Assembly (NCBI GenBank): GCA_021781655.1
Contig: JAJXWJ010000020.1
Span: 1-49,507 of the forward strand
Origin: Bacillota bacterium
GTDB lineage: Bacteria > Bacillota > Clostridia > Clostridiales > Clostridiaceae
Reading direction: 5' to 3'
DNA: 49,507 nt
Below are positions 8,434 to 47,527 of the stretch, piece by piece (position 1 is the first letter of the stretch; each line of letters begins with the position of its first letter). The translations under genes and the position numbers were made by a program. The notes beneath the pieces are model-generated. The model was not told where the DNA came from, searched no databases, and worked only from the letters and a program-made list of their open reading frames with translations.

Positions 8434-9306
8434 ATGAATCTTATTAAACTTGAAATCTTAGTTCTTATTTCAAAATTCAACAAAGTAACCGTTGTAGCTG
8501 AAAAACTTGGAATAAAGCAACCTACTGTCACTTTTCATATGAAAAGTCTTGAAAAATCTCTTGGCATATCTCTTTTTGAAATCCATGGTGGCTATACCGT
8601 TTTAACTGAACCTGGTGAGGTTCTACTCCATTACGCAAGTAAGATTTTGAAACTAAATGATGAGGCAGAAAGGGCCATTGGAGAGTTTAATTCCCTTCAA
8701 AGAGGAACCTTTAAAATTGGAGCAAGCTATGTGCCTTCTTCATATTTAATGCCAACTGTTTTGAAAACTATGAAAATAGAATGTCCAAAGCTTAACATAT
8801 CAGTAACTTCATGCCCTTCTAAAAGCATAATTCAAATGATTTTAAATCATGAATTAGATGCAGGCATAATTTGTACTACCGGTTCTCAAAATCCAAATAT
8901 TACATACAAAAAAATATATCAGGATGAACTTGTTTTGGTATTTTCAGAAAAAAATCCTTTAGCAAAATCCGAAAGCTTAAAAGTTGACGATTTGTTAAAT
9001 AAAACCTTTGTTCATCATAGTACGATATCATCCACTAGGCAATTAGTAGACAAGTGGTTAATAAATAACAGTTTAGCCTTTGATTCTATTGTTGAGCTTG
9101 ATTCCATTGATTCTATTAAGCATACTTTAGTATCCACAGATTGGCTTTCAATTTTATCAAAAAAAGCTGTTGATGAAGAAATTAAAAGAGGAGAACTAGT
9201 TTATAGAGAGCTTCCTGGCGATAAGCTAGAAAGGGATATATATTTAATTCGGAATAAAGATAGATGGCTTTCCCCCATTATGAGGAAGTTTTTTGATGCT
9301 TTTTAG
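8434..9306 (+). CDS. LysR-family transcriptional regulator
   Basis: 290-residue LysR-type regulator. Residues 1-60 form the winged helix (LEILVLISKFNKVTVVAEKL, then QPTVTFHMKSLEKSLGISLF) and the rest is the two-lobed effector-binding domain (FKIGASYVPSSYLMPTVL, HELDAGIICT, LVLVFSEKNPLA). The CysL/CbbR-like look of the effector domain suggests a small anionic ligand. Divergent placement next to the importer operon suggests that it controls that operon and itself; the imported compound or a derivative may be its co-inducer. A perfect terminator follows. Confidence 0.92.
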   Translation: MNLIKLEILVLISKFNKVTVVAEKLGIKQPTVTFHMKSLEKSLGISLFEIHGGYTVLTEPGEVLLHYASKILKLNDEAERAIGEFNSLQRGTFKIGASYVPSSYLMPTVLKTMKIECPKLNISVTSCPSKSIIQMILNHELDAGIICTTGSQNPNITYKKIYQDELVLVFSEKNPLAKSESLKVDDLLNKTFVHHSTISSTRQLVDKWLINNSLAFDSIVELDSIDSIKHTLVSTDWLSILSKKAVDEEIKRGELVYRELPGDKLERDIYLIRNKDRWLSPIMRKFFDAF

Positions 9307-9317
9307 AAGCAGCAATA

Positions 9318-9360
9318 AAAAACCTCCATAGCTTGAAACGTTTCTTCTATGGAGGTTTTT
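9318..9360. terminator. Rho-independent terminator, bidirectional
   Basis: Arms AAAAACCTCCATAG (9318-9331) and CTATGGAGGTTTTT (9347-9360), loop 15 nt, with T tracts on both strands. It serves the LysR gene and the converging NmrA-like gene. Confidence 0.88.
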
Positions 9361-9405
9361 CTATTGTCAAAATATAAACTGAGTAATTGTTCATTGTTAT
9401 CAAAC

Positions 9406-10020
9406 TTACTTACTTAGTCCAACGCTTTTTCCGATATATTTATCATCTTGTATTGCCTTTAGTAAAAAGCTAGCTACATCCGCACGGGAAATACTCATAC
9501 CTCTATCAGGAACACCCTCTTCAGCTTCTCTATATTCACCTTTAAACTCTCCATCTGTTAAGGACATCGGTCTAGCTATTGTAAAATCCACTCCACTTTT
9601 TTGTAAGTACTCAAAAGCACCCTTATGGTCTTTTAATGTATTTTTTAGCACGTAACTTATAATTTTTCCAATTACTCCTTTCAATTCACCATGTATCCCT
9701 GCAGACGCAATTTGAGATATTCGGTTCACTCCTGTTTCCTTCATAGCATCCACAATATTTTTTGTTATATCTGTAATAATTGTCGATACTTTTGTTCCTG
9801 GTCCTCCTATACAACTAATTACAGCATCTTGACCATTCATAGCTTTTTTTACATCTTCATATTGGGTTGCTTGTCCAACTACTATATGCAATTTCTCAGA
9901 CTTTATTTTTATAGCTTCAGCATTCCTCACAAAAGCTGTCACTTCTATTCCATTACTAAGTGCCTGTTCAATTACTTTTTGACCTGTCTTCCCATTAGCT
10001 CCAAAAACTATAATCTTCAT
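9406..10020 (-). CDS. NAD(P)-binding NmrA/atypical SDR protein
   Basis: 204-residue Rossmann-fold protein of the NAD(P)H-binding (PF13460, biliverdin-reductase-B-like) group. The N-terminus MKIIVFGANGKTGQKVIEQA contains the GxxGxxG dinucleotide motif; AVISCIGGPG and SGVDFTIARPMSLTDGEFKG follow in the expected places. Members are redox sensors or reductases of poorly defined substrate. The ATG lies 1 bp past the stop of the MerR-family regulator gene, so the two are co-transcribed and probably respond to the same stress signal. Confidence 0.88.
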   Translation of the reverse strand: MKIIVFGANGKTGQKVIEQALSNGIEVTAFVRNAEAIKIKSEKLHIVVGQATQYEDVKKAMNGQDAVISCIGGPGTKVSTIITDITKNIVDAMKETGVNRISQIASAGIHGELKGVIGKIISYVLKNTLKDHKGAFEYLQKSGVDFTIARPMSLTDGEFKGEYREAEEGVPDRGMSISRADVASFLLKAIQDDKYIGKSVGLSK

Positions 10021-15883: not shown

Positions 15884-16300
15884 TTAAATTCCTATAAACC
15901 ATGCCAAAAAGATTGAAATCACAGCATTACGTATAAATAAAGGAATACTTTGGTTTATACTATTTATTGCCGACGTATGATTAATTGAAGCTTTGTTTTT
16001 CAATACGTTTAATGCAATCATTATTATTCCGCAGCTTATAAACAGCAGTGCCCATCCTAGAGCATTAATGTATAAAATGCTTTTAGTCAGATTTACAGTT
16101 TTGTTTACTGTAATCAGCCAGGTGAATACAGCAATCCCAATAGAGAAATTAAAGAACTTTTTTATTAGCTTTATGTATTCATTAGTTAATGTATTTTCAA
16201 ATATTACCGCCCTGTATAAAACTACTGAACTTAATACAATACCAATAACGGATAAAATGTTTCCTATTATGCATAATATACTTATTAGTGTCTGTCCCAT
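15884..16300 (-). CDS. Four-helix integral membrane protein
   Basis: 138 residues with four hydrophobic segments (about 8-30, 48-66, 74-96 and 118-137), the first starting MGQTLISILCIIGNILSVIG. GGAGGATAAGTT precedes the ATG. No catalytic motif is visible. It overlaps the zinc-finger membrane protein gene by 16 bp and is the last gene of the kinase-helicase operon, so it probably forms a membrane partner, by analogy with the membrane-anchored effectors or anchors of other defence operons (inference). Confidence 0.7.
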   Translation of the reverse strand: MGQTLISILCIIGNILSVIGIVLSSVVLYRAVIFENTLTNEYIKLIKKFFNFSIGIAVFTWLITVNKTVNLTKSILYINALGWALLFISCGIIMIALNVLKNKASINHTSAINSINQSIPLFIRNAVISIFLAWFIGI

Positions 16301-16770
16301 AACTTATCCTCCACTTCTTTTATCTTATTTAAAACATGACTTGTTTTTTCTTGAATATTTTTTTTAGTAATTACTAAACCTGCCTGTGCCACTATTTTTT
16401 TCTTTGCAGTATTAATTTCATTTCCTTTATTTAGTTTTTTAAATTGGATATTTGAAATTCTTGCTCCTACATCTAATTTTGTTACAACACTAGCTATATT
16501 GCTCTGAGATTTATACATATCTCTGCCTAAATACAAAGTGCAGGCCATAATTAAAATAATCGAAAAGAATAAAACATTATTTATCACTTTACTTTTTATT
16601 ACAACTGTATCCAAATTATTTAAAATAAACTTTTTATACTTTTCTTTTTGAAACATAATTTCTTCACTAACAATTTCATCAATTTTATCTTTACTTAATG
16701 GTGTATTGCAGATTAAACAAACATTGCTTACAAATGAATTTTTATTAGCACATTTTTCACATTCCCACAT
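16285..16770 (-). CDS. RanBP2-type zinc finger membrane protein
   Basis: 161 residues. The N-terminus matches the RanBP2 zinc finger exactly (W2-x-C4-x2-C7-x3-N11-x6-C18-x2-C21), a fold that in other proteins binds RNA or ubiquitin. It is followed by a charged helix, one membrane segment at about 64-82 (NNVLFFSIILIMACTLYLGR) and an outward or cytoplasmic tail rich in Lys (residues 95-161). AAAGGA precedes the ATG. It overlaps the 4-TM gene, suggesting a two-protein membrane unit. A zinc finger at the very N-terminus of a bacterial single-pass protein suggests recognition of a nucleic acid or partner protein at the membrane (inference). Confidence 0.72.
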   Translation of the reverse strand: MWECEKCANKNSFVSNVCLICNTPLSKDKIDEIVSEEIMFQKEKYKKFILNNLDTVVIKSKVINNVLFFSIILIMACTLYLGRDMYKSQSNIASVVTKLDVGARISNIQFKKLNKGNEINTAKKKIVAQAGLVITKKNIQEKTSHVLNKIKEVEDKLWDRH

Positions 16771-16783
16771 AATATCAATTCCT

Positions 16784-17743
16784 TTAATTTAATTCATCAC
16801 TTAAACTTATTGCATACTTATTAATATCATCTCGTAGTTCAATTTCTTCTGTATATTCATCTTCATCATTAACTTCACTGTTTGTTTCATAATCCAGATT
16901 AAACCTACTAATTTCATCTTTCAAATACTCAAAATGTATATCATCTCTTACAATGTAGGAAGATGTATCGCAATTTATCGACTTTAAATAATTATAATTA
17001 CTTAACGAAATTGATACTGGTTTCCATACAATAACAGGTATTTTGCTTTCTCTATTAAAAATACGCCCTTTTAATATAATCATAGGATCTTTAAGTTTTT
17101 CAAATTCAACTGCATATGCCCTTGTAAAGCGGAGCGTAGATGTCTTAACATCTACTATTTCTTTTATATTTTTATCTAAAATACCAATATCCGGCTGCTT
17201 GTACTGATCCAGTCTTTCTGTAATATCATTTTTAACTTTTTCATCAACCTCTATTGTTCTCTGAGGAACTGCTGAATCTGCTTTAAAGACAGTTCCTTTA
17301 AAAAGCTTGTCCTCCCTCTGCTCAAGTTCTCTCCTTAATATTGAACCAGTTACAGCATCAAATTGAATTTCCTTTACGACTTCATAAATAACATGATTAA
17401 TTTTTTCGTTTAAAGATATTCGTCCAAGTTCTGTAACCTTTCCTTCTTTAATATGTTTATAAGCATTTTCTTCAAGAGCAATCATTTTTGCTATAAGTTT
17501 TTTATCTAGTGACGTAACCTGATTTATTGCTTCTGTTGTATGAAGTCCTGCATCATAAAGCTTCAAAATTAGTAACTCTAGTGACTCAAACTCTGCCCTT
17601 GTATACTCTAATGCTTCAACATTTGCTACGGAGATGGGGCAATAAAACAAGCTCATATATTTCAATTTTCCTGCCTTGAAAAGTTCTGGACAGCATTTCT
17701 GAAAATTGCTTAAATCTTCTTTTTTATAATCTGCTTCAGCCAT
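16784..17743 (-). CDS. Uncharacterised protein with a PD-(D/E)XK-like signature
   Basis: 319 residues counted from ATG 17743, chosen because AGAGGTG lies 9 nt upstream (a GTG 12 bp earlier overlaps it). The N-terminal half is helical and includes LFYCPISVANVEALEYTRAE. Around residues 184-200 stands QPDIGILDKNIKEIVDVKTS, i.e. PD-x12-D-V-K, which fits the catalytic pattern of PD-(D/E)XK nucleases. The C-terminus is very acidic (SEVNDEDEYTEEIELRDD). I do not recognise the family; nuclease activity is inferred only from the motif and from its place between a helicase and membrane proteins. Confidence 0.6.
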   Translation of the reverse strand: MAEADYKKEDLSNFQKCCPELFKAGKLKYMSLFYCPISVANVEALEYTRAEFESLELLILKLYDAGLHTTEAINQVTSLDKKLIAKMIALEENAYKHIKEGKVTELGRISLNEKINHVIYEVVKEIQFDAVTGSILRRELEQREDKLFKGTVFKADSAVPQRTIEVDEKVKNDITERLDQYKQPDIGILDKNIKEIVDVKTSTLRFTRAYAVEFEKLKDPMIILKGRIFNRESKIPVIVWKPVSISLSNYNYLKSINCDTSSYIVRDDIHFEYLKDEISRFNLDYETNSEVNDEDEYTEEIELRDDINKYAISLSDELN

Positions 17744-17759
17744 ATTTACTAACACCTCT

Positions 17760-20700
17760 CTAGCTTAAAATTTCCTTTGACAACATAAACTGACCTTTGC
17801 CATTTTTAACTTCAGTAACAAAATAGTCCATAAACTGTGCATACTCTTTTTCACTCTGATTAGGAACCATTTTGCCGTTTTCATCTAAAACTTCATACTC
17901 ACAGGTAGTCAGAAAATCCATGTCTCCTATAACTATCATTTGATTTTTACATCTTGTAAATGCAACATTTAATCTTCTGAGCTCTTTCATAAACCCAATT
18001 CTAGGCTGCTTGCTACTTTTTTTGTAATCGCTTCTTGTTGAACTGTAAATTATTAATTTTCTTTCCTGGCCCTGATAACTATCTAAAGTTGCAACCATAC
18101 TCACGGCCTCCTCCTCCGTTAGCGAGTAAACCTGTTTTTTCAATATTTTTCTTATATTAGCTACCTGCTTGCTGTAGGGAGCAATTATGCCAATTTCCGA
18201 AGATTTTAATTCACCTGAAGCTATTACTTTTGAAATAATATTTCCGATTATCTCACTTTCATAATCATTTATATAGCCTCCACCTGCTGCCGGCTTTTCT
18301 CTTCTTTTTTCGTTATCACTAGTACTTATTACAACTAAAGGCTTGCTGAATATGTCAGAGACAGACTTCATATTTTCCTTGCTTTTTACCGATTCATACT
18401 TGTCCTCATAAAACTGATGTGAAATAATACTTGCTATTTCAGCAGGCATTCTGAATTGAGTCCTTAAAATAGTTTTATTTTTCTCAGGAAATTCTTTTTT
18501 CTTATACAAAAATTCAAAGAAGCTTTCCTTTAATAAATCGTCAGCAACTCCATCCATTTTGCACAGCTTTGCTACTTCCTCATTAACAATCGGAGGAATC
18601 TGAAGATAATCTCCTAGAAGAAGATTTTTTCGTGCTCTTGTCATTGGAACTATAATGTTATGAATCTGAATCTGTCCTGCCTCATCTATTATTGAAACGT
18701 CAAATTCTACCTCTGAGAATTTTCTATTACTATTTATTCCTATACAAGTAGCACCTACAACATCAGCACCTTCAATTAAAATGTTAGTCATTATCTCATT
18801 TCTTTTTTCATCCAATGCCTTATCCCATTCACTAATTGCATTTTTAAGCTTGCATATATTTTCTATAGCTTCAATACACTGATTTTTAAAATTATTTACA
18901 TCCTCAAAACATTTTTTAAGGTTTTCAAACTGAATAATACAACTAAAACTATCATAAGGAAGAGAATATTCCATATTAAAATTCCCATTATTTTGCAGTT
19001 TCATTTTAATTTCACTTAATTCTTTTTTACGTTCAAGGAATTCCTTATCCTTTAGATGCTGCTGAAATTCAGCTGACATTTTATTGTAGGCTTCAACAGA
19101 ATAGTCATACCTTTTCTTTTCTTCATTTATTTTTGAATTTGTCTTTAAAATATCATATTTAACACCTAGTGAAATTGGTAATCTAAATATTCTTATAAGC
19201 GGATTTTTCTTTTTTGTTTCACAAACATATATATTTTTTCTGTTCTTCTCGTCAATAAGTATTTCCAATGCATTCTTAGAAGAACTGCTGCTTTCAAAAA
19301 GATGATTTAAATTTATTAAATAATCCTTTAACATTTTATACTGATAAGATACTTTATTTATAACACTCTGATAACTTTCAAGTAATTTATAAGACTCCTC
19401 TGAAAGCTTTATAAGTTCCTTCAGCCTTTTAGTATCAGTATCATATTTATCTTCATTTTCAATAAAAGTCTTCTTATAACTTGAATACAGCTTTTCACCC
19501 TGCTTCTCTGGCATGAATTCTTTTACATTATCCTGAATCATTTTTTCATTGCCAATACGGATTATTCCTATATCCTTGTTCTCAGCTACCCTTTCCAGAA
19601 CATTATCTACAGCCTTATTATTCTGTGAAGATACAAGAACTCTTTTCCCGATTTTTGTATAATAATCTATCCATGCAACAATAACTGTTGTTTTTCCTGT
19701 TCCAGGAGGTCCTAAAACTAACTGGATATCTTTAGTTTTAATGCCCTTCTCAATTGCCTCCATCTGAGAGATATTTGGAGCAAATTCCCCCTCTTTAGGA
19801 TTTTCAAGCTGTTTTTTAAATTCAGTCCAATACACAGCATTTTCTTCATAGCCTTCTGCTGAAAATTTTTCAAAGGTTTTATACATGTATTTTGATTTTA
19901 TTTTAAATTTTTCTATAGCTGCTAAAACATTTTCCCTAACTCTGCGCTGAACTGTATTATGCTGCAAAAATATTCGTCCGGTATCTGGTATTTCCGAATC
20001 ATTAAATTCAGAAGAAAAACTTATTTCAACCAATGTACTGTCTTCTTCAGAAATAATATTTACAATTACACCGTTTAGTAATTTTCTTTCACCATCGTCT
20101 TTAAATTGAGAAGTTTCGACACTGATCCTTACATCATTTTTAAATATTTTTTCATCATAAACAACGCAGTTAAAAATATATGTAGTATTGTTCATTTCGC
20201 TTCCCTTTGTAGTAGACCTTTTGCTTATGTAAACTAAAGAAGCTCCTGAGATTACCTCTATTTTTTCTGCTTCATCCTCATAATGAGTGTAATCTCTGAT
20301 TGGTTCTAAAATACGTTTTCTAAAGGTTCTCCCAATACTATAAGAATTGTCAATTACCGCATTATTATTTTCAAAATACTCTTTAATTTTTCTGTCCATA
20401 TATTCAAGATAATCTTCTGGCATTACCCATTCTTCATCGCTCATTGAAGCTGGATATTTTAAATACTTTTTTTCTCCGTCGTATATCGTCTGAAGAATTA
20501 CCATAACATTATTTCTAGGCACTAAATTCATTATTGGTTTGTTATAAAAATACTCTTTAGTATGATTCTTTTTAATATTGTATTCGTCCATTATTGCAAC
20601 TACTTGGAAAGAATTCTGTTCACTTCTTATGCATACTAAAAGGTATTTATTAATTAACAATGCAAATTTATAGCTATCATCTGCTTTCTCAAACAATCCC

Positions 20701-20849
20701 ATTACGAGGATTTCAGAATTTACTAATTCTTCAATCACCTGATCAATACAATTTATGTTTTTTACCCTTACTTTATCTCCAATAAATATTTTTAAAGTTT
20801 CCTCTACATCAAACCACTCATTAGAATATAAATTAATTGTATTCTGCAT
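17760..20849 (-). CDS. UPF1/DNA2-like superfamily 1 helicase
   Basis: 1029 residues from ATG 20849 (GTGAGGA 5 nt upstream). An N-terminal ~360-residue region of unknown fold is followed by the SF1 helicase core: Walker A GPPGTGKTT (~380-388), SSQNNKAVDNVLERV (motif Ia), a ~220-residue coiled-coil-rich insertion (~466-686), Walker B IIDEAGQ (~720), LLLGDYLQIPP (motif III), LRTQFRMP (motif IV), ATLDSYQGQERKL (motif V) and RRLNVAFTRCKNQMIVIGD (motif VI). This is the COG1112 group, whose members act on RNA or DNA and occur in defence systems such as Mokosh and in BREX-associated loci. It is the central enzyme of the operon, starting inside the 44-residue gene (17-bp overlap). Confidence 0.88.
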   Translation of the reverse strand: MQNTINLYSNEWFDVEETLKIFIGDKVRVKNINCIDQVIEELVNSEILVMGLFEKADDSYKFALLINKYLLVCIRSEQNSFQVVAIMDEYNIKKNHTKEYFYNKPIMNLVPRNNVMVILQTIYDGEKKYLKYPASMSDEEWVMPEDYLEYMDRKIKEYFENNNAVIDNSYSIGRTFRKRILEPIRDYTHYEDEAEKIEVISGASLVYISKRSTTKGSEMNNTTYIFNCVVYDEKIFKNDVRISVETSQFKDDGERKLLNGVIVNIISEEDSTLVEISFSSEFNDSEIPDTGRIFLQHNTVQRRVRENVLAAIEKFKIKSKYMYKTFEKFSAEGYEENAVYWTEFKKQLENPKEGEFAPNISQMEAIEKGIKTKDIQLVLGPPGTGKTTVIVAWIDYYTKIGKRVLVSSQNNKAVDNVLERVAENKDIGIIRIGNEKMIQDNVKEFMPEKQGEKLYSSYKKTFIENEDKYDTDTKRLKELIKLSEESYKLLESYQSVINKVSYQYKMLKDYLINLNHLFESSSSSKNALEILIDEKNRKNIYVCETKKKNPLIRIFRLPISLGVKYDILKTNSKINEEKKRYDYSVEAYNKMSAEFQQHLKDKEFLERKKELSEIKMKLQNNGNFNMEYSLPYDSFSCIIQFENLKKCFEDVNNFKNQCIEAIENICKLKNAISEWDKALDEKRNEIMTNILIEGADVVGATCIGINSNRKFSEVEFDVSIIDEAGQIQIHNIIVPMTRARKNLLLGDYLQIPPIVNEEVAKLCKMDGVADDLLKESFFEFLYKKKEFPEKNKTILRTQFRMPAEIASIISHQFYEDKYESVKSKENMKSVSDIFSKPLVVISTSDNEKRREKPAAGGGYINDYESEIIGNIISKVIASGELKSSEIGIIAPYSKQVANIRKILKKQVYSLTEEEAVSMVATLDSYQGQERKLIIYSSTRSDYKKSSKQPRIGFMKELRRLNVAFTRCKNQMIVIGDMDFLTTCEYEVLDENGKMVPNQSEKEYAQFMDYFVTEVKNGKGQFMLSKEILS

Positions 20850-20967
20850 CTTTTTCCTCACTTTTTTCGAGTTTTAATGGAAGCTTATAACATTTATCTT
20901 TCTGAACTTCTAAAAGTTCATTTAAGTTTTCTTTATCAGTTTCATCAAGAATATCTTCAATTTTCAT
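20833..20967 (-). CDS. 44-residue acidic peptide between kinase and helicase
   Basis: ATG 20967 follows the kinase stop without a gap, with AGGAGA 6 nt upstream; the frame reads MKIEDILDETDKENLNELLE, then VQKDKCYKLPLKLEKSEEKD, AEYN, stop. It overlaps the helicase start by 17 bp, so all three genes are coupled. The strong start site, tight packing and charged composition support a real gene; it could be a kinase substrate, inhibitor or helicase adaptor. No family recognised. Confidence 0.6.
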   Translation of the reverse strand: MKIEDILDETDKENLNELLEVQKDKCYKLPLKLEKSEEKDAEYN

Positions 20968-21828
20968 TTATTTCTCCTTTTTTGTTCTTGAGCTATAATA
21001 AAATGCCCTTTCAAGTTCCTCTCCATTTTTATATCTGCTATCAGGCTGACGTCTTAAGCATTTTTTCAATACCTTGCTTACTTCCTCACTGATGTTTTTA
21101 TTGTAATCTCTTACATCTGCCACACTCTTCCACTCAACATCCTTTGATGTACATGTTAAATCAATTCCAACCTTTAGATTTCTGCCTGTTAACATTTCAA
21201 AAGCAATAAGTCCCATAGCAAAAATATCTATTCTGCCATAGTTTGTACCTATACCTCCATTTATCTGCTCTGGAGCCTGATAAAGATGTGTCCCGGTATC
21301 TTTTAAGGTTGGCTGTGCTGAAATTCCAAAATCAATAATATATATACTTTGATTATTATTACCATAATTTTTTACAATAATATTTTTAGGCTTCAGGTCT
21401 TTATGCTGAAGATAGGGCACTTTATGTATTTGCCCTAATGTCCTGCTTATCTGCAAGAGCAGTCTGATATTGCTTTTGATTACACTGTAATCTTCATATC
21501 TGCCTTCATTATCCTTTATGATTTTATCTAACGTTATACCATCAATATACTGCATAACAATAACAAACTTCTTTTCTTTAAAATCATCATAATAATCATA
21601 CAGCGACGGAATATTATCAGCTGCTGCTTCTGCTTTAATTAGTGCCTTACATTCATTTATAAGTGTCCTTTTATCTCCACCCTCATAACCAATAATTTTT
21701 ATTCCAACTATCCTGTCTAAATTAATATCAAGTGCTTTATAAAATACTGTATCATTTTTTGCTTCTTCATAAATCGTTTCTATAACTGCATATTGCTTGT
21801 TGTTACGAAATGTAAGCACCTTAGACAA
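20968..21828 (-). CDS. Eukaryote-like Ser/Thr protein kinase
   Basis: 286-residue cytoplasmic protein kinase, catalytically complete: Lys44 (VGIKII), αC Glu59, HKDLKPKN (Asp144, Asn149), DFG (166-168), GTHLYQAPEQ (APE at 185-187) and the Asp of DIFAMGLIAFE. The glycine-rich loop is degenerate (IYEEAKNDTVFYKAL). No transmembrane or PASTA region, so it differs from housekeeping PrkC-type kinases. The start is a TTG with GGAG 5 nt upstream, overlapping the pseudokinase gene by 8 bp. It probably phosphorylates a component of its own operon or a host target on infection, as kinases of other defence systems do (inference). Confidence 0.9.
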   Translation of the reverse strand: MSKVLTFRNNKQYAVIETIYEEAKNDTVFYKALDINLDRIVGIKIIGYEGGDKRTLINECKALIKAEAAADNIPSLYDYYDDFKEKKFVIVMQYIDGITLDKIIKDNEGRYEDYSVIKSNIRLLLQISRTLGQIHKVPYLQHKDLKPKNIIVKNYGNNNQSIYIIDFGISAQPTLKDTGTHLYQAPEQINGGIGTNYGRIDIFAMGLIAFEMLTGRNLKVGIDLTCTSKDVEWKSVADVRDYNKNISEEVSKVLKKCLRRQPDSRYKNGEELERAFYYSSRTKKEK

Positions 21829-23119
21829 AATTCTCCATCTCCTTCTTGGAAACTTCTAAAAACTCCTCTAATGAAGGCTTTTCCATCAAGCTGTTATCAT
21901 ATACTTCATCTAAAAAATCTAAATAGTCATCACTATATTTATCTATTAAAATATCATTATCTAAATTAACAGTACTAAAATTGCCCATATTCATCCAGAT
22001 TAAAAGTACACCAACAGAATAAACATCAACCTTTTCCCAATCTACTCCATCTAAATCCTCTATTGAGTTATTCCTTATTTCAACTGGTGCAAAAGGATTA
22101 AATTCTGCCATATCAAATAATTCTTTCCTTACTGTTGGTACACTTTCATCTTCCTTTATAATTTTCGACGTTTCAAAACATCCTAGTTTAACATCATATG
22201 AAACTCTGTTTTTCAAAACAAAAACATATTCAGGTCTTATTCTTCTATGATGGATTTTCGTATCATATACAACATTTTGAATAGAAATTAATCCTTCAAG
22301 AAGTTTAACAACTATATATAATGCATCTTTGCTGCTAATATTTAATTTTTCCCTTTCTCTCAGTGACACAGCTTTTTCATCAATGCAGTATTTAATATAA
22401 TATAAATCACATTCCCTGGAGGTGTTCTCAATTTCACCTCTTAAAATTCCCTGAGGACTGTCATGCATACCATGCCACAACTCATCCATGATAACGTTAT
22501 CTCTCTCCTTAAAAACATCAGGAGATTTTTTAAAACATCTTATGTAATACCAATTGTATTTATTGTTTATTTTCTCTTTACATATATAATTGAAATCTCC
22601 ATATGAAGCCTCAAAATTCTTTCTTTCAATTTTCCTTACTACTTCACATCTTTTCATTGGAAGTTCATCAATTTCTAATTTCTGAGGTCTATTATTTTTC
22701 AAAAAAATATTTGCAACAGCCTGATAAAGCCTTTTTACAAGTTTAGTTGACTGGTCTACAGTAGCATCTTTAACAATTACGTATTTATCAGACCCTTTTG
22801 TGTTAACATGTACAATTGAATTTACAGTCATTCTGATTTGATGTAATAAATCCTTAGCCTTGCTGTCAATATAATGCTTATCAAAACAATACTCTATTTT
22901 CTTTTCTAAATTATCCAATTTCAAAAGTTTTTCAGTGATATTATCAATTTTTATTTTGTTATCAGCTAATATTGAAACTACTAAAATCTCTATTGCTTTT
23001 CTACAATTAATTGCACTTTCATTTGGGCTTACTCTTGAAGCTGTCTCTGCATCAATACAATAATTGTATAAGTCGTCTTTTGCATAAGTTTCTACATCCT
23101 TTAATATGTCAAAATACAT
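21821..23119 (-). CDS. DUF4145/HEPN-like domain fused to a pseudokinase
   Basis: 432 residues from ATG 23119 (AAGGAG 7 nt upstream; 7 earlier codons are open). Residues ~25-110 match the DUF4145 helical module (AINCRKAIEILVVSILADNK, then LLHQIRMTVNSIVHVN) found at the N-terminus of type I restriction HsdR and other defence proteins. Residues ~180-425 follow a protein-kinase plan, but the catalytic loop reads HHRRIRPEYVFV where HRDxxxxN is expected and the DFG position reads GCF (~313-315), so catalysis is most unlikely. The later VDVYSVGVLLIWMNMG is a normal kinase helix F. It precedes and overlaps the active kinase gene: a pseudokinase-kinase pair in which it may sense and switch on its partner. 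Confidence 0.75.
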   Translation of the reverse strand: MYFDILKDVETYAKDDLYNYCIDAETASRVSPNESAINCRKAIEILVVSILADNKIKIDNITEKLLKLDNLEKKIEYCFDKHYIDSKAKDLLHQIRMTVNSIVHVNTKGSDKYVIVKDATVDQSTKLVKRLYQAVANIFLKNNRPQKLEIDELPMKRCEVVRKIERKNFEASYGDFNYICKEKINNKYNWYYIRCFKKSPDVFKERDNVIMDELWHGMHDSPQGILRGEIENTSRECDLYYIKYCIDEKAVSLREREKLNISSKDALYIVVKLLEGLISIQNVVYDTKIHHRRIRPEYVFVLKNRVSYDVKLGCFETSKIIKEDESVPTVRKELFDMAEFNPFAPVEIRNNSIEDLDGVDWEKVDVYSVGVLLIWMNMGNFSTVNLDNDILIDKYSDDYLDFLDEVYDNSLMEKPSLEEFLEVSKKEMENFV

Positions 23120-23477
23120 AACGTCACTCCTTCCATTCATTAATCATTGGTATATGGTGTGCCACTAACTATATATTCTCTGTATTTCGACAAAACTCCT
23201 TCTGACTTTACGATTAAAATGAAGATTATTTGATATAAAAATTTATATAAAAAAAACAAACCTCCTTTCAGAATCAGGTTTTCACGATAAGAAGAAGCTG
23301 CATATTTCATATGTTTGGGTATATGTTTTCCAGCATCCTGTATACTATGTTATAATAAAATATAAATTATGTAATTATAGAAATCATATACCAAAAAAAA
23401 TTTTATGAGCAATTTAACTTATAAAATTTCTTTTGTGATAAGTTTTCTAAAGATAAACTAATTTAGAGGTGTACGCT
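23120..23477. promoter_or_regulatory. Divergent intergenic control region
   Basis: No gene fits here. For the plus-strand MutT gene there is a -10 TATAAT (23351-23356) with TTCCAG 17 bp upstream, a 7-bp leader hairpin AACTTAT/ATAAGTT (23416-23422 with 23438-23444) and GAGGTG before the ATG. The kinase operon start on the minus strand has only weak boxes (TTGTCG near 23190). The region separates two putative defence units. Confidence 0.4.
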
Positions 23478-23876
23478 ATGAAAAAACAAATAAAGGTTGC
23501 AGCTGCAATCATCGAAAATGCTGACAATGAAATACTCTGTGCTCTTCGCTCGCCAGATATGGCAATGCCTAATCACTGGGAATTTCCAGGTGGTAAACTT
23601 GAAGCTAATGAAGATTGCATGAAAGCTGTAGAAAGAGAAATCCAGGAGGAATTAGGCTGCATAATTCAATTTCAACATATTTTTAATGAAAATACATATG
23701 AGTATGAGGAGTTTATTGTTGAACTCATCACCGCAAAATGTACTCTAATTTCTGGAATTCCAACTGCCAATGAGCATTCGAAATTAATATGGCTAAAACG
23801 GGAAAACCTAAAATCGTTAATTTGGGCACCAGCTGATCTAGCTGCTGTAGAACAATTAATTAACGAAAAAATTTAG
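23478..23876 (+). CDS. MutT-like Nudix pyrophosphohydrolase
   Basis: 132 residues from ATG 23478 (GAGGTG 6 nt upstream). Complete Nudix box GGKLEANEDC...REIQEELGC, starting in the MutT/CTP-diphosphatase style MKKQIKVAAAIIENADNEIL. These enzymes cleave (d)NTPs, often oxidised or modified ones, to monophosphates. The stop lies 12 bp before the start of the PLD-helicase gene, so the two form an operon. This pairing of a MutT protein with a DUF3427 helicase recurs in bacteria and suggests removal of a phage-modified or signalling nucleotide rather than ordinary housekeeping (inference). Confidence 0.9.
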   Translation: MKKQIKVAAAIIENADNEILCALRSPDMAMPNHWEFPGGKLEANEDCMKAVEREIQEELGCIIQFQHIFNENTYEYEEFIVELITAKCTLISGIPTANEHSKLIWLKRENLKSLIWAPADLAAVEQLINEKI

Positions 23877-23888
23877 AAGGTGTTACAA

Positions 23889-26800
23889 ATGTTAAAACAA
23901 GGTATTTACGAACAAATCGTTAACGACAAAATAAAGAAGGAATTAGCTGAAATTGATACTCAAAAATTTGATATTACTTTAGAAGGTTTAGATGTTGAAG
24001 ATGCACGAAAAATATTAACTATTTACATATCATTTATAATCAAGCGAGGATTAAAATTTATACGCGATGGCTTTAAAAGTGATGAAAATAAGGAAGCCCT
24101 TGCTGCCCAAATTAAGCTATGCAACGACATTATTAATCAAATTGTCAGTAACAGCGGTGAAGAAGATTTTAAGGGATTTAATATTTTAGAAAAGGGTGAA
24201 CTTTTAACCTCTATTTATTCAAAGCTTAATTCTGTAAGAGCAATTGAGAGCAAAAAAGTTGTAAGGCCATCAACTTCTATTATAGAAAGTACTTTATTTA
24301 CCGGCTCAACTCAGGAACCGAATATGATGAGTGAAATAAAAAAGGAAATTTCATCAAGTGATTCAATCGACCTATTGGTTTCTTTTGTAAAGTGGAGTGC
24401 TATTAGAAGAATTATAGAAGAACTTCGTGAATTTACTAATCGTGAAGGTACAAGGCTTAGAATAATTGCTACTACATATATGCAAGCAACTGATTATAAG
24501 GCTATTGAAGAGCTCTCAAAGCTGAAAAATACGGAAATAAAAATCAATTATGAAACAAACCATATGAGAATGCATGCAAAATCTTATCTTTTCAAACGTG
24601 ATACTGGCTTTACTGTAGCCTATATTGGATCTTCTAATCTATCCAATCCTGCTCTTACAGAAGGTTTAGAATGGAATTTAAAAATTACAGAGAAAGAATC
24701 CTTTGATATTATAAGAAAGTTTGAAGTAACTTTTGAAAGCTACTGGAATGATTCAAATTTCGAAACTTTTGACATAAATAATGAAAATACTCGAAAGAAA
24801 TTAAGCTCTGAATTATGCAAAGTGATTAATTATAAACAGGAGAAATTCAAACTGCAATGTATAATTAAACCCTACCCATATCAGCAGGAAATTCTGGATA
24901 AGCTTCAAGCTGAAAGAGAAATCTTCCACCAGAATAAAAACCTGATTGTAGCATCAACTGGTGTTGGAAAGACAATCATTGCAGCTTTGGATTTTAGAAA
25001 TTACTTTGAAAAACACAAAAATGCTCATTTATTATTTATTGCTCACAGAAAAGAAATATTAGAACAGAGCATTCAAAAATTCAGAGAAGTATTAAATGAT
25101 TTTAATTTTGGCGATTTATTTGTTGATGGTAATAAACCCTCTCAAATTGAGCACCTATTTATGAGTATTCAATCCTTTAATTCGTCTAACTTCATAAACA
25201 ATACTTCAAAAGATTTTTATGACTTTATTATAATTGATGAATTTCACCACGCAGCCGCAAAATCATATCAAAAGCTGTTAGATTACTATACTCCAGAAAT
25301 TCTCCTTGGATTAACCGCTACACCTGAACGAATGGATGAAAAAAATATATTAGAGCATTTTAATGGAAAAATTGCATCTGAAATGCGTCTTGCAGAAGCA
25401 ATAGATCGTAAGCTATTATGCCCTTTTCAATATTTCGGTGTTTCCGACACAGTAGACTACTCAAAGCTTATATGGCGTGGAAAATATGATATTACAGAAC
25501 TTGAAGGCATATATACTGCAAATACAAAACGTGCGTCTATGATTTTGAAAAGTGTTCTAAAGTATGTCACTGATATAAATGATGTGAAAGGACTCGCCTT
25601 CTGTGTAAGTGTTAAACATGCTAATTCTATGGCAAAATACTTTAATGAGCATGATGTACCCTCAATAGCACTTAGCTCAAAAAGTGAAGATGATATCAGA
25701 AGTGACGCAAAAGAGGATTTAATTTCAGGCAAAATAAAATTTATTTTTGTAGTTGATTTATATAATGAAGGCGTTGATATTCCACAAGTAAATACAATTC
25801 TTTTCTTACGTCCAACAGAAAGTGCCACAGTCTTTTTGCAGCAATTAGGAAGAGGACTTCGTTTGTATGATAACAAAGAATGTTTAACAGTACTTGATTT
25901 CATCGGCCAAGCTAATAAAAGGTACAATTTTGAAACAAAATTCCGTGCAATGCTTGGAAACTCCAGCAAATCCATTCAAAACTATGTTGAAAATGGATTT
26001 TCTTATTTGCCTAAAGGCAGTTACATAGAACTGGAAAAGCAAGCTCAGGATTATATTCTTAAGAATTTAAAGCAATCAATTATTAATAAAAATACATTAA
26101 CTGAAAAAGTAAAATACTTTGAAGCAGATACTGGTCGTCCACTAAATTTAGATTGTTTTTTAAATCATTATGGCTTGACTTTATATGATTTCTATCACAG
26201 CAGTGGTTCTAGATCATTATACAGAATGAAAAAATGGGCAGGAATACTTCAAACCACAGAGGATACTGATGATTCTGTATATAGGGCTATGGTTGGGCTA
26301 TTCCATATTAATTCAAAAAAGCTTATAGATTATTGGATAAATTACATAACAACAGCAGAACTACCTAAAAATGAAGAACAACGGTTAATGAGAAATATGC
26401 TGTATTACACCTTCTATCAAGCAGATCCAGCAAAATTAAACTTTGAATCAATTGATGCCGGCATAAATAAAATTATTTCAAAAGATTTTGTAAAAAATGA
26501 AATTTTAGAAATATTAAATTTTAACCGTAATAACTTGAATTTTGTTTCAAAACAAAATAATTTTAGCTATATATGCCCTCTGGATGTATATTGCAATTAT
26601 TCTACAAGACAAATTTTAGCTGCCTTTGATTATTATAATGAAAAGCAGGCACCAACCTTTCGTGAAGGAGTAAAATACTTTGATGAAAAGAAAACAGATA
26701 TATTTTTAATTAACTTAAACAAATCGGAAAAAGACTTTTCACCATCTACAATGTACGAAGACTACGCTATTAACGAACAGCTTTTTCATTGGCAAAGTCA

Positions 26801-27047
26801 GAGTCAGGTTTCTGAAACTAGCTCAACTGCTAAGCGTTATATAAATCATAAAAAACTGAATTCCAATATTTCACTTTTTGTAAGGGAATTTAAAAGAAAC
26901 GGTGCATATACTTCCTCATTCACTTTTTTAGGATTAGCTGACTATATCAGTCATTATGGTAGCAAACCTGTAAGTATTACTTGGAAGCTGCATGAACATA
27001 TTCCGGCTTCGCTGCTTCCTAAAGCTAATAAGAGTATTGTTTTATAA
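23889..27047 (+). CDS. SF2 helicase with PLD nuclease domain and DUF3427
   Basis: 1052 residues from ATG 23889 (AAGGTG 6 nt upstream). Order: N-terminal helical part (~1-130); PLD-type nuclease domain with MHAKSYLFKRDTGFTVAYIG and SSNLS (His229, Lys231; one HKD motif, so it would act as a dimer); SF2 helicase with VASTGVGKTIIAA, LFIAHRKEI, IIDEFHHAAA, LLGLTATPERMD and LQQLGRGLRLYD; and a C-terminal ~350 residues of the DUF3427 type. Such proteins are predicted antiphage nuclease-helicases acting on invading DNA. It forms an operon with the MutT gene. A second PLD-SF2 helicase lies at 44969-47449, only distantly alike and without a clear DUF3427. Confidence 0.88.
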   Translation: MLKQGIYEQIVNDKIKKELAEIDTQKFDITLEGLDVEDARKILTIYISFIIKRGLKFIRDGFKSDENKEALAAQIKLCNDIINQIVSNSGEEDFKGFNILEKGELLTSIYSKLNSVRAIESKKVVRPSTSIIESTLFTGSTQEPNMMSEIKKEISSSDSIDLLVSFVKWSAIRRIIEELREFTNREGTRLRIIATTYMQATDYKAIEELSKLKNTEIKINYETNHMRMHAKSYLFKRDTGFTVAYIGSSNLSNPALTEGLEWNLKITEKESFDIIRKFEVTFESYWNDSNFETFDINNENTRKKLSSELCKVINYKQEKFKLQCIIKPYPYQQEILDKLQAEREIFHQNKNLIVASTGVGKTIIAALDFRNYFEKHKNAHLLFIAHRKEILEQSIQKFREVLNDFNFGDLFVDGNKPSQIEHLFMSIQSFNSSNFINNTSKDFYDFIIIDEFHHAAAKSYQKLLDYYTPEILLGLTATPERMDEKNILEHFNGKIASEMRLAEAIDRKLLCPFQYFGVSDTVDYSKLIWRGKYDITELEGIYTANTKRASMILKSVLKYVTDINDVKGLAFCVSVKHANSMAKYFNEHDVPSIALSSKSEDDIRSDAKEDLISGKIKFIFVVDLYNEGVDIPQVNTILFLRPTESATVFLQQLGRGLRLYDNKECLTVLDFIGQANKRYNFETKFRAMLGNSSKSIQNYVENGFSYLPKGSYIELEKQAQDYILKNLKQSIINKNTLTEKVKYFEADTGRPLNLDCFLNHYGLTLYDFYHSSGSRSLYRMKKWAGILQTTEDTDDSVYRAMVGLFHINSKKLIDYWINYITTAELPKNEEQRLMRNMLYYTFYQADPAKLNFESIDAGINKIISKDFVKNEILEILNFNRNNLNFVSKQNNFSYICPLDVYCNYSTRQILAAFDYYNEKQAPTFREGVKYFDEKKTDIFLINLNKSEKDFSPSTMYEDYAINEQLFHWQSQSQVSETSSTAKRYINHKKLNSNISLFVREFKRNGAYTSSFTFLGLADYISHYGSKPVSITWKLHEHIPASLLPKANKSIVL

Positions 27048-27225: not shown

Positions 27226-27717
27226 CTATGAAATTTCAGCCATAAGCTGTTCTATCAAAATATGCATATTGGTATATGGATTCATTTCTCCAATATTGCT
27301 TGTTATATCTTTTTCTTCAATCTTATATTTAGCTTCCAACTCTTCTGCATTACTTATAGCAGCTTCAACATTGCCATTCTGAATTATCTCACGTATAATT
27401 CCCTGACTTGCTTTTTTATAAGCTCTTGTCAAATGATGAGTTAACCTATTATATATTGCACGCTTGGTCATTTTAGTTTCTACATTTTCAAAATGCATTA
27501 ATAACCATACTTCAAATAAATAATTCGAAACCAACAACTCAAATTTACTTTCTGAACCAAGCATTTGTAAAATAACCTTTTGAACATTAGGTGGATCATC
27601 GCAATCAAAAACCAAATACTGTTTTTCCGTCATTCCTTCACAAAATACTAAGATACGTCCCAAATTAAGATTGATAGTGTCTTTTTGACGCTTAGTTGAT
27701 AATACAGTCCTACTCAA
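27226..27717 (-). CDS. RloB/AbiLii-like protein with shortened Toprim region
   Basis: Partner of the RloA-like ATPase in AbiL-type abortive infection. Family marks: RILVFCEGMTEKQY (first acidic Toprim motif), FDCDDPP (D-x-D), SNYLFEVWLLMHFE and NPYTNMHILIEQLM. In usual RloB proteins (about 210-230 residues) some 50 or more residues separate EGxTExxY from FDxD. Here they abut as EKQYLVFDCDD, giving 163 residues, so most of the Toprim strand-helix core is missing while the frame is kept. I start at TTG 27717 (GGAAGTG upstream); GTG 27726 is also possible. It overlaps the ATPase gene by 8 bp. Activity is doubtful. Confidence 0.75.
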   Translation of the reverse strand: MSRTVLSTKRQKDTINLNLGRILVFCEGMTEKQYLVFDCDDPPNVQKVILQMLGSESKFELLVSNYLFEVWLLMHFENVETKMTKRAIYNRLTHHLTRAYKKASQGIIREIIQNGNVEAAISNAEELEAKYKIEEKDITSNIGEMNPYTNMHILIEQLMAEIS

Positions 27718-28984
27718 TACTATCACTTCCTAATATTTCATCATAATTAAATATAGGAATAGCTCCATATTTCCCTTGCAAATAATCTTTATTAAAAGTT
27801 GCATCATCACGAACCTTCAAGTCTGATAATGAATATACACTTGATTCACCGCGGATATTTTTATCTACAAAAACAACCTCATCACGCCTAAACTGTTCTT
27901 TATTTAGTAGCGAAATATCATGTGTAGTAAAAATAAGTTGTGCCTTTTTGTTGCTACTGGATTGAAATATATCCACAATTAATTTTGTTAATAATGGATG
28001 TAACCTGGCAGAAATCTCATCTACAATAAATACCCCACCTCGTTCTGTCATACCTATTACTTCTTGAATATATGATAAAAACCTTAACGTGCCTGTAGAC
28101 TCTTGGTGGAGTTCAAAAAACTTTTGGTTCGCCACATTTCCAAAATCATCATAAACATCATGAACTGTCTTTACTATTTTCTTTTCTTTTTCTTTTCCAG
28201 TCTTTTCATCAACAATTGTTTTCACTTGAATATCTAAACCTTTAATACCTACATCAATTTGGTTTAAATACTGCTCAACTTTTTTTCTAAAATCAGTATC
28301 ACCTACTAATCTTTCATTTAATCTAACTAACCCTGCAATACTCTTAACTGTTGACTCAAAGAACACTTCAAGAAAAACATCATATTCTTTAAAGAAAAAA
28401 TTCATGAAATCATTCATAACAATTTCCTTTACATCTTCTTCAAGAAAATATTCCAATACAGACAAATACAATCTTTCCTTAGGAACCTTTGTATATGACT
28501 TTAGATATTTACCATAAAATTTGCTATATGATATTTCTTCCTTATTACGCTCAAATACCTTTTTATCATCAATGTAGTACCACTCATTTAATACTTCTTT
28601 TGCGGTACATTCAAATCCATATTGAATTTTCTTATTATTATAACTAAATATAATATCAAATTCTGATGCATCATTTACATTCTCTGACAACTGAAAAGGT
28701 TCTAATTCTGTTTCCAAGTCCCTTCCAGAAAAATCATATTCCTCATTATCCTTCTTTGTAATAAACTGCTCAAAGATGTAGCTTTCAAAGAAAAACATTG
28801 CAGATATAAAATTAGATTTACCTGAAGCATTAGCACCATATATAGCTGTTGTTTTTAACAATTTTGTTCCATCTGAAGAATCCAATAAATGAGACATATG
28901 TTGTTTATAGCTTGCTGCTCTTAAATCTAATATCGCTTCATCTTTAAAAGATGTATAATTTTTAGCCTTAAACATTATTAACAT
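27710..28984 (-). CDS. RloA/AbiLi-like AAA ATPase (OLD-type)
   Basis: 424 residues from ATG 28984 with AGGAGG 7 nt upstream (18 further open codons upstream lack a site). ABC-class AAA_15/21 ATPase: MFKAKNYTSFKDEAILDLRA at the N-terminus, Walker A IYGANASGKSN, signature-like ESTGTLRFLSY, Walker B GGVFIVDEISARLHP and H-loop LIFTTHDISLLNK. Such proteins (RloA, AbiLi) act with an RloB-type Toprim/nuclease partner, presumably sensing infection and licensing cleavage. It has no nuclease domain of its own. All ATPase motifs are intact although the partner is shortened. Confidence 0.87.
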   Translation of the reverse strand: MLIMFKAKNYTSFKDEAILDLRAASYKQHMSHLLDSSDGTKLLKTTAIYGANASGKSNFISAMFFFESYIFEQFITKKDNEEYDFSGRDLETELEPFQLSENVNDASEFDIIFSYNNKKIQYGFECTAKEVLNEWYYIDDKKVFERNKEEISYSKFYGKYLKSYTKVPKERLYLSVLEYFLEEDVKEIVMNDFMNFFFKEYDVFLEVFFESTVKSIAGLVRLNERLVGDTDFRKKVEQYLNQIDVGIKGLDIQVKTIVDEKTGKEKEKKIVKTVHDVYDDFGNVANQKFFELHQESTGTLRFLSYIQEVIGMTERGGVFIVDEISARLHPLLTKLIVDIFQSSSNKKAQLIFTTHDISLLNKEQFRRDEVVFVDKNIRGESSVYSLSDLKVRDDATFNKDYLQGKYGAIPIFNYDEILGSDSIE

Positions 28985-29243
28985 ATTACTGCCTCCTAAC
29001 CTTTTCTTCATTATATGATGTTTGTTTTCATAAATCAATAGTTTTTACGAAATTTTCGTATTTTTTATTAATTTTGCTTGATTATTTGCAAATAGTGTTG
29101 TATTATTACGTTTCTATCGTTTTTAATATTTTATACGTAAATACTAAATCGTTTACGAAATAATAATTAAATAATTTATTTAAATTTTAACGATTAAGAA
29201 ATAACTTCTAGTTTTTTCTGTAGCAAGAATGTTTATAACAGAA
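28985..29243. promoter_or_regulatory. Upstream region of the AbiL-like operon with TACGAAA palindromes
   Basis: No gene. A perfect 15-bp palindrome TACGAAA-T-TTTCGTA (29046-29060) and a second half-site TTTACGAAA (29152-29160), plus TATACGTAAATA near 29132-29143, give a cluster of TACG-centred sites in otherwise AT-only sequence. They probably bind a repressor controlling the AbiL-like operon. Confidence 0.4.
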
Positions 29244-40543: not shown

Positions 40544-41383
40544 TTATAATAATTTACTTGGATCAATATTATATCCACTTTCTTTCATTTCTTTGAATAA
40601 ATCCATTTTCCATCCTGATTGAGAATCCATTTTTATGTAAACAACACCAGAAATATCATTCGGTGTTTCAACTTCCCCTTTTACTAAAGCACAAACATTT
40701 TTCCTTCCAATTTTTCCAATAAGATATCCATGTTCAAATATTACATTCTGTCTTGCTCGATCTTTTAATTCAGATTGATTTTTTCCTCTTCCTTCATCAC
40801 ATGGAGTATACAAAACAACTGCAAATCCAACATTTGAATTTTCTTCTATTTTTTCAATAATTGTTTGTCCTTTACTCGCCAGCTCATGTAAAATAATTGC
40901 TTCCAATCCTAGCTTTTCAATAAATCGTGCTGTTTCTTGTTTTGCTTCGTTATCATGACCATGTACTATAAAAACCTTTGTTTTATCCATAATTCTTCCT
41001 CCTTCAATTTTTACAACTTCATTATTTTCTATCACGTATAATTTATTATCACACAAAATTTCTTTAGAAAATTTATATACTTTAATAACAAAAACATTCT
41101 TTCCTTCAATATTCAATAGTTTATATTCTATTTCTGGTTGAATAGAGAGTTGTTTTATCGCTACTTCTATAATGCCATTGAAATTAAAAGTTCTGCTTAT
41201 ATTTGTCAATTTATAACTTTTTTCCTCTTTAATAGCACCAATAACTATATATCCTTCCATTGTATTTGCCATTGAAGCTATATACATTGCAATATTTTTA
41301 GGCTTTAATTCAAATTCTCTACATAATATATTAGAAGAATCAATATCAACTAAAATTTTTTTTACTTCTTTAATATTAATCAT
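40544..41383 (-). CDS. AlbA_2 domain fused to a TIR-like nucleotide-binding domain
   Basis: 279 residues. The N-terminal ~125 look like a Schlafen/AlbA_2 module (ILCREFELKPKNIAMYIASM, ANTMEGYIVIGAI). The rest is a PF10137-type TIR-like domain: KVFIVHGHDNEAKQETARFI, EKLGLEAIILHE, GQTIIEKIEENSNVGFAVVL, YTPCDEGR and RARQNVIFEHGYLIGKIGR, including the conserved Glu of the NVIFEHG motif that in TIR enzymes attacks NAD+. Related domains are effectors in CBASS (Cap12) and Pycsar. It starts 8 bp after the HSP90-like gene and is evidently its partner, so a sensor ATPase plus NADase-type effector system is likely (inference). Confidence 0.8.
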   Translation of the reverse strand: MINIKEVKKILVDIDSSNILCREFELKPKNIAMYIASMANTMEGYIVIGAIKEEKSYKLTNISRTFNFNGIIEVAIKQLSIQPEIEYKLLNIEGKNVFVIKVYKFSKEILCDNKLYVIENNEVVKIEGGRIMDKTKVFIVHGHDNEAKQETARFIEKLGLEAIILHELASKGQTIIEKIEENSNVGFAVVLYTPCDEGRGKNQSELKDRARQNVIFEHGYLIGKIGRKNVCALVKGEVETPNDISGVVYIKMDSQSGWKMDLFKEMKESGYNIDPSKLL

Positions 41384-43410: not shown

Positions 43411-44502
43411 TCATTTCCAGTTATTCCTAGATACATAATCCAATAATGATTTATATAAATTACAAGCAGTTAAAATAAGTTCTTTATTTTCTTCAATCTT
43501 TTCATTTTCAGTATCAGTTAAGAAAATACCATCCCTTGGTTCTGTAGGATTAAATAATTTACTGTTTATTATTACAGGAAATGAAAAATCATTTGTTCCA
43601 ACTAGAGGAAAATCACAAAATATCTTTGGCTGGATTTGATTAAATGGTTTAATCCATTCGGCACCATTTTTTTCTTCAATATTTATAGCTATTGAAACTA
43701 ATTTATCATCAACTACTAATACATAACTATTGCTTGTATTAGAATCTTTAATTTTATGTATATTATATACATAAAAATTCGACAATTTACATTTAACTTC
43801 TTCATTCAAAACATATCTAATATTTTCATCTTCAATGTATATTTCCTCTAATTTAGGAGTGAAAGCTAATACATATGGAACTGATATTTTTAAATCTTGT
43901 ATACCGATTTTTGCGACTTCTAATCCCTTTTCATTTAAAACATATCTAAAAGTAGTATTATATTCATCAATATCATATTTATTATTATCATTTATTTCAT
44001 CACTTCTATTTAATTCTTCAAATGATTTATGAATGGCTTCAATTATTTCATCTCTATTTTTTCCAGATCTATCAATAGTAATTTTAAATTTTTTTATTAA
44101 ATCATCATCTCTCAAATAACCATTAACTAAAACTACTTCTGATAACAAATGTGTTGTTAAAAATCCCGTTCCAAACTTACCAGTTATCTTATCTTTATCA
44201 ACATCATCTCTTTCTTTTGTTGATACCTGTTCAATTAAAAAAACAATATTTTTTGTTGAAAACGGCTTGCCATTATGACTAAATTCAAGTACTTTATTTT
44301 CTTCATCTAAATTAATTTTAACCTTTACTTTTCCACTGGAATTAGAAACATCTTTAGCATTTTGCAAAAGTTCCCAAATCCATCTTCTAGGACTATTAGT
44401 ATTTGCAGTTAATCTAAGTTTATCCATCGCATCAATTATTTTATTTGCTACATGAGCATTGTGTGCCTCCTCACGTTCTTCCTTTATTCTGTCTGAATAC
44501 AT
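43411..44502 (-). CDS. N-terminal ATPase part of split HSP90-like protein
   Basis: 363 residues with a GHKL/HSP90 ATP-binding fold: WIWELLQNAKDV (the Mg-binding Asn), VLEFSHNGKPFSTKNI (the Asp-Gly-x-Gly counterpart is HNGKPF), KITGKFGTGFLTTHLLSEVV (lid glycine box) and NPTEPRDGIFLTD. AGAGGTGATCAA precedes the ATG. The frame ends LLDYVSRNNWK, TGA, and resumes in frame with the 672-residue ORF, so the full product would be about 1036 residues. Whether the TGA is a recent nonsense mutation, a sequencing error or is read through is open. Confidence 0.8.
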   Translation of the reverse strand: MYSDRIKEEREEAHNAHVANKIIDAMDKLRLTANTNSPRRWIWELLQNAKDVSNSSGKVKVKINLDEENKVLEFSHNGKPFSTKNIVFLIEQVSTKERDDVDKDKITGKFGTGFLTTHLLSEVVLVNGYLRDDDLIKKFKITIDRSGKNRDEIIEAIHKSFEELNRSDEINDNNKYDIDEYNTTFRYVLNEKGLEVAKIGIQDLKISVPYVLAFTPKLEEIYIEDENIRYVLNEEVKCKLSNFYVYNIHKIKDSNTSNSYVLVVDDKLVSIAINIEEKNGAEWIKPFNQIQPKIFCDFPLVGTNDFSFPVIINSKLFNPTEPRDGIFLTDTENEKIEENKELILTACNLYKSLLDYVSRNNWK

Positions 44503-47449: not shown

Positions 47450-47527
47450 AGTATCACCTAATTCCCTCAAATATATATTGATACTATATTCTCTATATTT
47501 TTACAAAATCCTTCTTATTTTTTATAT

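Follow-up and report, generated by a model that had tools for sequence, protein, structure and literature searches.

The window (the whole stretch of DNA analysed, 49,507 nucleotides) carries on its minus strand an operon that begins with two kinase-like genes. The gene order is pseudokinase, kinase, small gene, helicase, MkoB-like gene, zinc-finger/transmembrane (TM) gene and TM gene. The genes and the features within them are as follows.

21821-23119, minus strand: HEPN(DUF4145)-pseudokinase, 432 aa, ORF extendable to 23140 (DUF4145 match, kinase fold, profile match to the partner kinase, dN/dS 0.14).
22691-23116, minus strand: N-terminal HEPN-fold domain (DUF4145), residues 9-150 of the 439-codon ORF (AF2 model and structural matches).
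22808-22834, minus strand: R103-x3-N107-x3-H111 motif; Asn and His are invariant in full-length relatives and the canonical RNxxxH Arg is absent.
21824-22666, minus strand: pseudokinase domain, residues 159-439 (AF2, Foldseek, VIA-align, PDB profile match).
22538-22540, minus strand: Arg201 at the VAIK-Lys position (alignment with nine relatives and ten kinase domains).
22241-22249, minus strand: HRR in place of HRD, H298-R299-R300, aligned with HKD of the partner (sequence and alignments).
22172-22180, minus strand: CFE in place of DFG, C321-F322-E323 (sequence and alignments).
20968-21828, minus strand: partner Ser/Thr kinase, 286 aa, catalytic residues intact (Pfam Pkinase 2.3e-28).
20833-20967, minus strand: small conserved gene, 44 aa, previously unannotated, between kinase and helicase, present in all eight loci (dN/dS 0.18).
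17760-20861, minus strand: SF1 (AAA_11/AAA_12) helicase of the type of the MkoA helicase half, probable start ATG 20849 (PADLOC MkoA 1.1e-105, profile positions 348-1096; Pfam).
16784-17755, minus strand: MkoB-like N-terminal part without PLD nuclease, 323 aa (PADLOC MkoB 7.5e-8, profile positions 9-199 of 610).
16285-16770, minus strand: RanBP2-like zinc finger and one TM helix, 161 aa (Pfam Zn_ribbon_RanBP 1.4e-4, below the cut-off; hydropathy).
15884-16300, minus strand: membrane protein with about three TM helices, 138 aa (hydropathy; position conserved in the loci).

The pseudokinase ORF occupies 21821-23140 of the minus strand and has 439 codons. The ATG at 23119 has a good ribosome-binding site (GGAAGGAGTGACGTTATG), better than that of the longer ORF, and agrees with the start in most relatives (MLFDIL...), so the extent given in a preliminary description, 21821-23119, is the better gene model. 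That description had also assigned the N-terminal part to DUF4145. The assignment stands: residues 32-113 match the Pfam family with 28.8 bits against a cut-off of 23.1, and DUF4145 here has a HEPN fold. Modelled alone with AF2 (pLDDT 89), the N-domain is helical and in structure most resembles HEPN proteins (2hsb, with Z 12.4 over 118 residues; the sacsin HEPN domain, 10.6). HEPN proteins form the majority of the top rows of this search, at Z values that a helical bundle may reach by chance, and Foldseek alone gives an E value of 0.1. MLKL, whose N-terminal four-helix bundle targets membranes, is not among the structural matches listed, although a search of this kind is no proof of a family's absence. 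The structural matches agree with the published assignment of DUF4145 to HEPN (PMC3710099).

The catalytic HEPN motif Rx4-6H was not found in the full-length relatives, in which the residue preceding N-x3-H is V, A or G; an R/K lies eight residues before the His. Other DUF4145 copies of the family likewise have G-N-x3-H, and another has R-N-x3-H. RNase activity of the domain is doubtful because the canonical Arg before the Asn is missing, and we do not favour it; a putative role in dimerisation or ligand binding is likelier. At one locus (L048) a stand-alone DUF4145-like gene (9013-9435, plus strand) lies directly before the pseudokinase gene. Its product is an apparent duplicate of the pseudokinase N-domain in which the His of N-x3-H is replaced by Asn.

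An AF2 model of the whole protein, built with six natural sequences (pLDDT 76.7), shows a protein kinase fold for residues ~159-439. Compared with solved structures, this domain has a best Foldseek E value of 1.4e-8, and VIA-align superimposes 263 residues on a solved kinase with Z 20.9 and an rmsd of 3.6. Pfam finds nothing significant in the C-terminal half. The kinase region of the PADLOC MkoA profile matches residues 274-384 (E 3.3e-9), the NCBIfam MAD6 kinase matches residues 224-387 (E 1.6e-8), and a profile of seven pseudokinases matches the partner-kinase profile with 97.4% probability. The C-terminal part is thus kinase-like, as first described, and a non-kinase fold is ruled out by the structural alignment. 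The same seven-member profile matches solved kinases in the PDB, among them the MLKL pseudokinase (E 1.8e-5), GCN2 (2.8e-5) and PERK (4.7e-5).

The protein combines this fold with the loss of the VAIK Lys, the HRD Asp and the DFG Asp, and is classed as a pseudokinase. Replacement of HRD by HRR, reported earlier from the sequence, is borne out by the alignment of residues 298-300 with the HKD of the partner. The reported loss of DFG is also correct, but the triplet then named, GCF (320-322), is one residue early; C321-F322-E323 aligns with DFG. Tyr305 aligns with the catalytic-loop Asn, and the nine relatives and ten kinase domains aligned reveal no conserved acidic residue at the expected alpha-C position of the pseudokinase. 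The best explanation of these sequence features is that the protein is not a phosphotransferase.

Its partner retains K44, the alpha-C Glu, H142-K143-D144, N149 and D166-F167-G168 in the alignments, and the two ORFs overlap by 8 nt. Both the intact residues and the overlap had been recognised before. In the loci aligned, the partner kinases keep K44, HKD or HRD, the Asn and the DFG Asp.

Related operons were identified at eight loci in two bacterial classes: the window, L004, L046, L047, L048 (also L042), L049 (also L041), L050 (also L071) and L083, the last from the same phylum but outside the sampled class. A search with the family of the window gave one copy that is 74% identical (L004) and a distant one (L005). 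When 84,980 species genomes were scanned with a profile, five loci came up, in Lachnospiraceae, Oscillospiraceae and other Clostridia; two of these had already been seen. The HRD Asp is lost in all eight loci; in the order window, L004, L046 to L050 and L083, the triplets are HRR, HRR, HRG, HRG, HRN, HRQ, HRN and HRA. DFG is replaced by xFE in all eight (CFE, CFE, CFE, CFE, NFE, FFE, NFE and NFE, in the same order). Chance loss of the motifs is excluded because the pattern is common to all the loci.

Comparison of the window with L004 gives these dN/dS values: pseudokinase 0.138, kinase 0.185, helicase 0.107, MkoB-like gene 0.092, zinc-finger/TM gene 0.33, TM gene 0.16 and small gene 0.18. The pseudokinase is under strong purifying selection. 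A decaying kinase copy is ruled out by this ratio, which is near that of the partner, together with the pattern common to the eight loci. Pseudokinase and helicase distances across the loci have a correlation of 0.98, which follows from joint inheritance of the operon and does not show contact. The operon is sporadic, with strong matches in 4 of 391 genomes of the class and 2 of 225 genomes of the order. Searches of INPHARED, PLSDB and IMG/VR found no relatives of the pseudokinase, and carriage as phage or plasmid cargo was rejected on these grounds.

The full gene order is common to the window, L004, L046, L048, L049 and L050, and extends in L083 up to the MkoB-like gene; in L047 the contig ends within the helicase. 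An accessory gene shared by L047 (upstream) and L049 (downstream) was considered and rejected, the two being dissimilar (E 0.58). The product of the small gene has 44-61 aa across the loci, is mostly acidic and carries the motif [IVM]-[LF]-D-[ED]-x-D. In several loci the gene runs into the start of the helicase gene, and the comparable ORF of L083 has a TTG start. A PLD domain was sought with Pfam and PADLOC in the six larger operon genes, and none matched. The zinc-finger protein has the pattern W-x-C-x(1,2)-C-x3-N-x6-C-x2-C, with invariant Cys, Trp and Asn, which we take to be the pattern of RanBP2 fingers. In L083 (8007-10208, minus strand) the MkoB-like protein carries a C-terminal fusion in which five TM helices are predicted and which replaces the last separate genes. 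This fusion suggests that the MkoB part and the membrane part plausibly act together.

The rest of the window holds further genes related to defence systems.

23469-27047: NUDIX and type IV restriction.
27226-29038: AbiLi/AbiLii.
35284-37680, minus strand: RdrB-like protein (E 4e-25).
40544-41383: TIR-like PDC-S35 protein.
41392-44502: TmtA halves in two adjacent ORFs.
44969-47470: second mREase_IV-like protein.

Judged by these matches, positions 23469-47470 are a dense predicted defence island. The gene of the RdrB-like protein overlaps that of an 841-aa protein for which PADLOC gives no match (35284-40198, minus strand); the two may be a RADAR-like pair whose second member is unrecognised. 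The earlier placing of the pseudokinase-kinase pair in a defence setting is supported by the operon at eight loci, the MkoA match at 1e-105 and the AbiL, type IV restriction, RdrB-like and Tmt-like neighbours.

Whether the pairing of a dead with a live kinase is general cannot be answered by a search based on the pseudokinase, and the MkoB-like profile was therefore used as an independent bait. A first survey with the MkoB profile gave mainly PLD proteins and small helix-turn-helix-like matches, and only N-terminal matches were followed. Four of 381 genomes of the class, and one more among 329 genomes of the phylum, yielded five loci, in every one of which a pseudokinase lies directly upstream of the kinase.

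Degenerate kinases were also seen in other arrangements. At L044 (2646-7857, plus strand) the genes encode a NERD-domain protein with a degenerate kinase, a live kinase, a helicase, an MkoB-like protein and then a DUF3800-like protein. The degenerate kinase keeps HRD and has NFD for DFG, its partner kinase is a separate gene, and the locus is a predicted second type of dead/live kinase pair. L005 (10132-16611, minus strand) has a classical fused MkoA of 1192 aa, an MkoB with a PLD-like part and, as third gene, a degenerate kinase of 466 aa with HRN and RFD. Taken together, L044 and L005 indicate that degenerate kinases recur beside Mokosh-type kinase-helicase genes. None was seen in two other fused loci, L037 and L039. 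In this small sample every locus with a separate kinase gene also had a degenerate kinase.

DUF4145-like proteins with a very degenerate kinase and no partner kinase occur at three further loci: L068 (7264-8532, plus strand), L069 (6723-7982, plus strand) and L070 (3177-4454, minus strand). All three belong to a housekeeping cluster that is conserved in one family of the class, with leuS, dCMP deaminase, DNA polymerase III delta prime and PSP1. The DUF4145-degenerate-kinase architecture alone does not, therefore, imply pairing.

We think it reasonably probable, from the sequence comparisons, that the pseudokinase is a dedicated non-catalytic regulator, scaffold or substrate of the adjacent kinase in a Mokosh-like defence operon. 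The preliminary description had proposed an allosteric sensor or scaffold, and this putative role fits. The pseudokinase would bind the adjacent kinase and set its activity, or would be its phospho-switched substrate, and the HEPN domain may dimerise or contact RNA or a partner. The helicase/MkoB-like module would recognise phage RNA or replication, and through the phospho-switch the signal would reach the zinc-finger/TM protein and the TM protein. These two stand at the place of the PLD nuclease of classical Mokosh, and their action would probably be on the membrane of the infected cell, through damage or blockage. We infer this membrane output from gene position and from the fusion in L083.

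The pseudokinase could instead be the executor, phosphorylated by the kinase so that its HEPN domain is freed to act, either as an RNase or together with the membrane proteins, in the manner of RIPK3-MLKL. The outline of that pair, an N-terminal helical domain, a pseudokinase and a separate kinase, is matched here, and its mechanism is a precedent (PMC12881547). The MLKL pseudokinase, which likewise has HRN and GFE, is the best PDB sequence match of the seven-member profile, and HEPN domains are often RNase toxins (PMC3710099). However, GCN2 and PERK score nearly as well, so that the MLKL match is a resemblance and not a special kinship. The N-domain matches HEPN proteins, the canonical Arg before its N-x3-H is missing, and the separate membrane proteins already offer an effector. 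We regard this role as unlikely. A bacterial immune switch of RIPK3-MLKL type in its full form, in which a kinase triggered by the helicase and MkoB would phosphorylate the HEPN-pseudokinase and so start a death response through the membrane or RNA cleavage, is a speculative analogy and a shade less likely still.

An inhibitory role has about the same small likelihood as that of executor. The pseudokinase would be a cognate inhibitor that keeps the kinase inactive and is itself disrupted upon phage infection, as in a toxin-antitoxin system. Pseudokinase domains can inhibit kinases, as JH2 does in JAK, and antidote genes typically overlap the effector gene from its upstream side and are tightly co-inherited with it, as seen here, but an activator or scaffold would be served by the same order. 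It is improbable that the pseudokinase itself modifies host or phage targets by AMPylation, glutamylation or metal-independent phosphotransfer: SelO, SidJ and the positively charged pocket of DLHK are precedents (PMC12599244), and the Arg that stands for the VAIK Lys might still bind phosphates, but the HRD and DFG Asp are kept in none of the eight loci and their replacements vary (R/G/N/Q/A and C/N/F), unlike a reused active site. Since some pseudokinases, such as SelO and SidJ, transfer AMP or glutamate (PMC12599244), a non-catalytic nature of the protein in the window is putative.

Under the favoured reading, a dead kinase that regulates its live neighbour, the control of live kinases by dead ones would be a feature of immunity in bacteria as it is in animals. 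Experimental work on bacterial pseudokinases is scarce (PMC12599244), and a conserved operon that in every case has a dead and a live kinase beside an RNA-helicase module makes the role of the dead kinase in bacterial immunity directly testable. The operon also indicates that the Mokosh kinase-helicase core can be split over separate genes and that it probably works with an output other than a PLD nuclease. A switch like RIPK3-MLKL, if true, would mean that the principle either predates animal necroptosis or converged with it.

The definition of Mokosh type I calls for a COG1112 helicase together with an STK domain, and for a separate PLD nuclease (PMC11672841). The window operon shares with it a COG1112-type SF1 helicase, a Ser/Thr kinase and the MkoB N-terminal domain. 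It differs in that the STK is a separate gene (20968-21828) with no kinase match in the helicase protein, in that the MkoB-like protein lacks the PLD nuclease, and in the addition of the HEPN-pseudokinase, the small gene and two membrane proteins. Classical Mokosh type I is ruled out, as both the STK-MkoA fusion and the PLD nuclease are absent, and the locus is a split, PLD-less, Mokosh-like operon with a predicted defence function.

The literature searched on pseudokinases and anti-phage or defence systems gave no kinase-pseudokinase pair in phage defence. The KKP prophage defence resembles the operon in that two kinase-fold proteins are encoded together; it differs in consisting of Ser/Thr kinases and a phosphatase, with no helicase or MkoB-like gene named in the available text (PMC11341870). 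The N-domain is like the DUF4145 HEPN domains of PMC3710099 in its Pfam match and HEPN fold. The accessible part of that account describes DUF4145 fused to restriction and helicase modules and includes no pseudokinase fusion, and the window copy is without the catalytic Arg.

Like RIPK3-MLKL, the system has a live kinase, a pseudokinase that has xFE for DFG and a helical domain at its N-terminus, and a predicted immune setting; unlike it, the system is a bacterial operon with a helicase, shows no specific sequence kinship and has an N-domain that matches HEPN. Links between bacterial pseudokinases and helicases are already known from the DLHK proteins, which are often joined to DNA2 helicases, occur mainly in proteobacteria and keep the HRD Asp and loop Asn (PMC12599244). 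The window pseudokinase resembles them in its link to a helicase and its degraded ATP and DFG motifs (PMC12599244). It differs from DLHK in the loss of the HRD Asp (HRR) and loop Asn (Tyr305), in its HEPN N-domain and in adjoining a live kinase.
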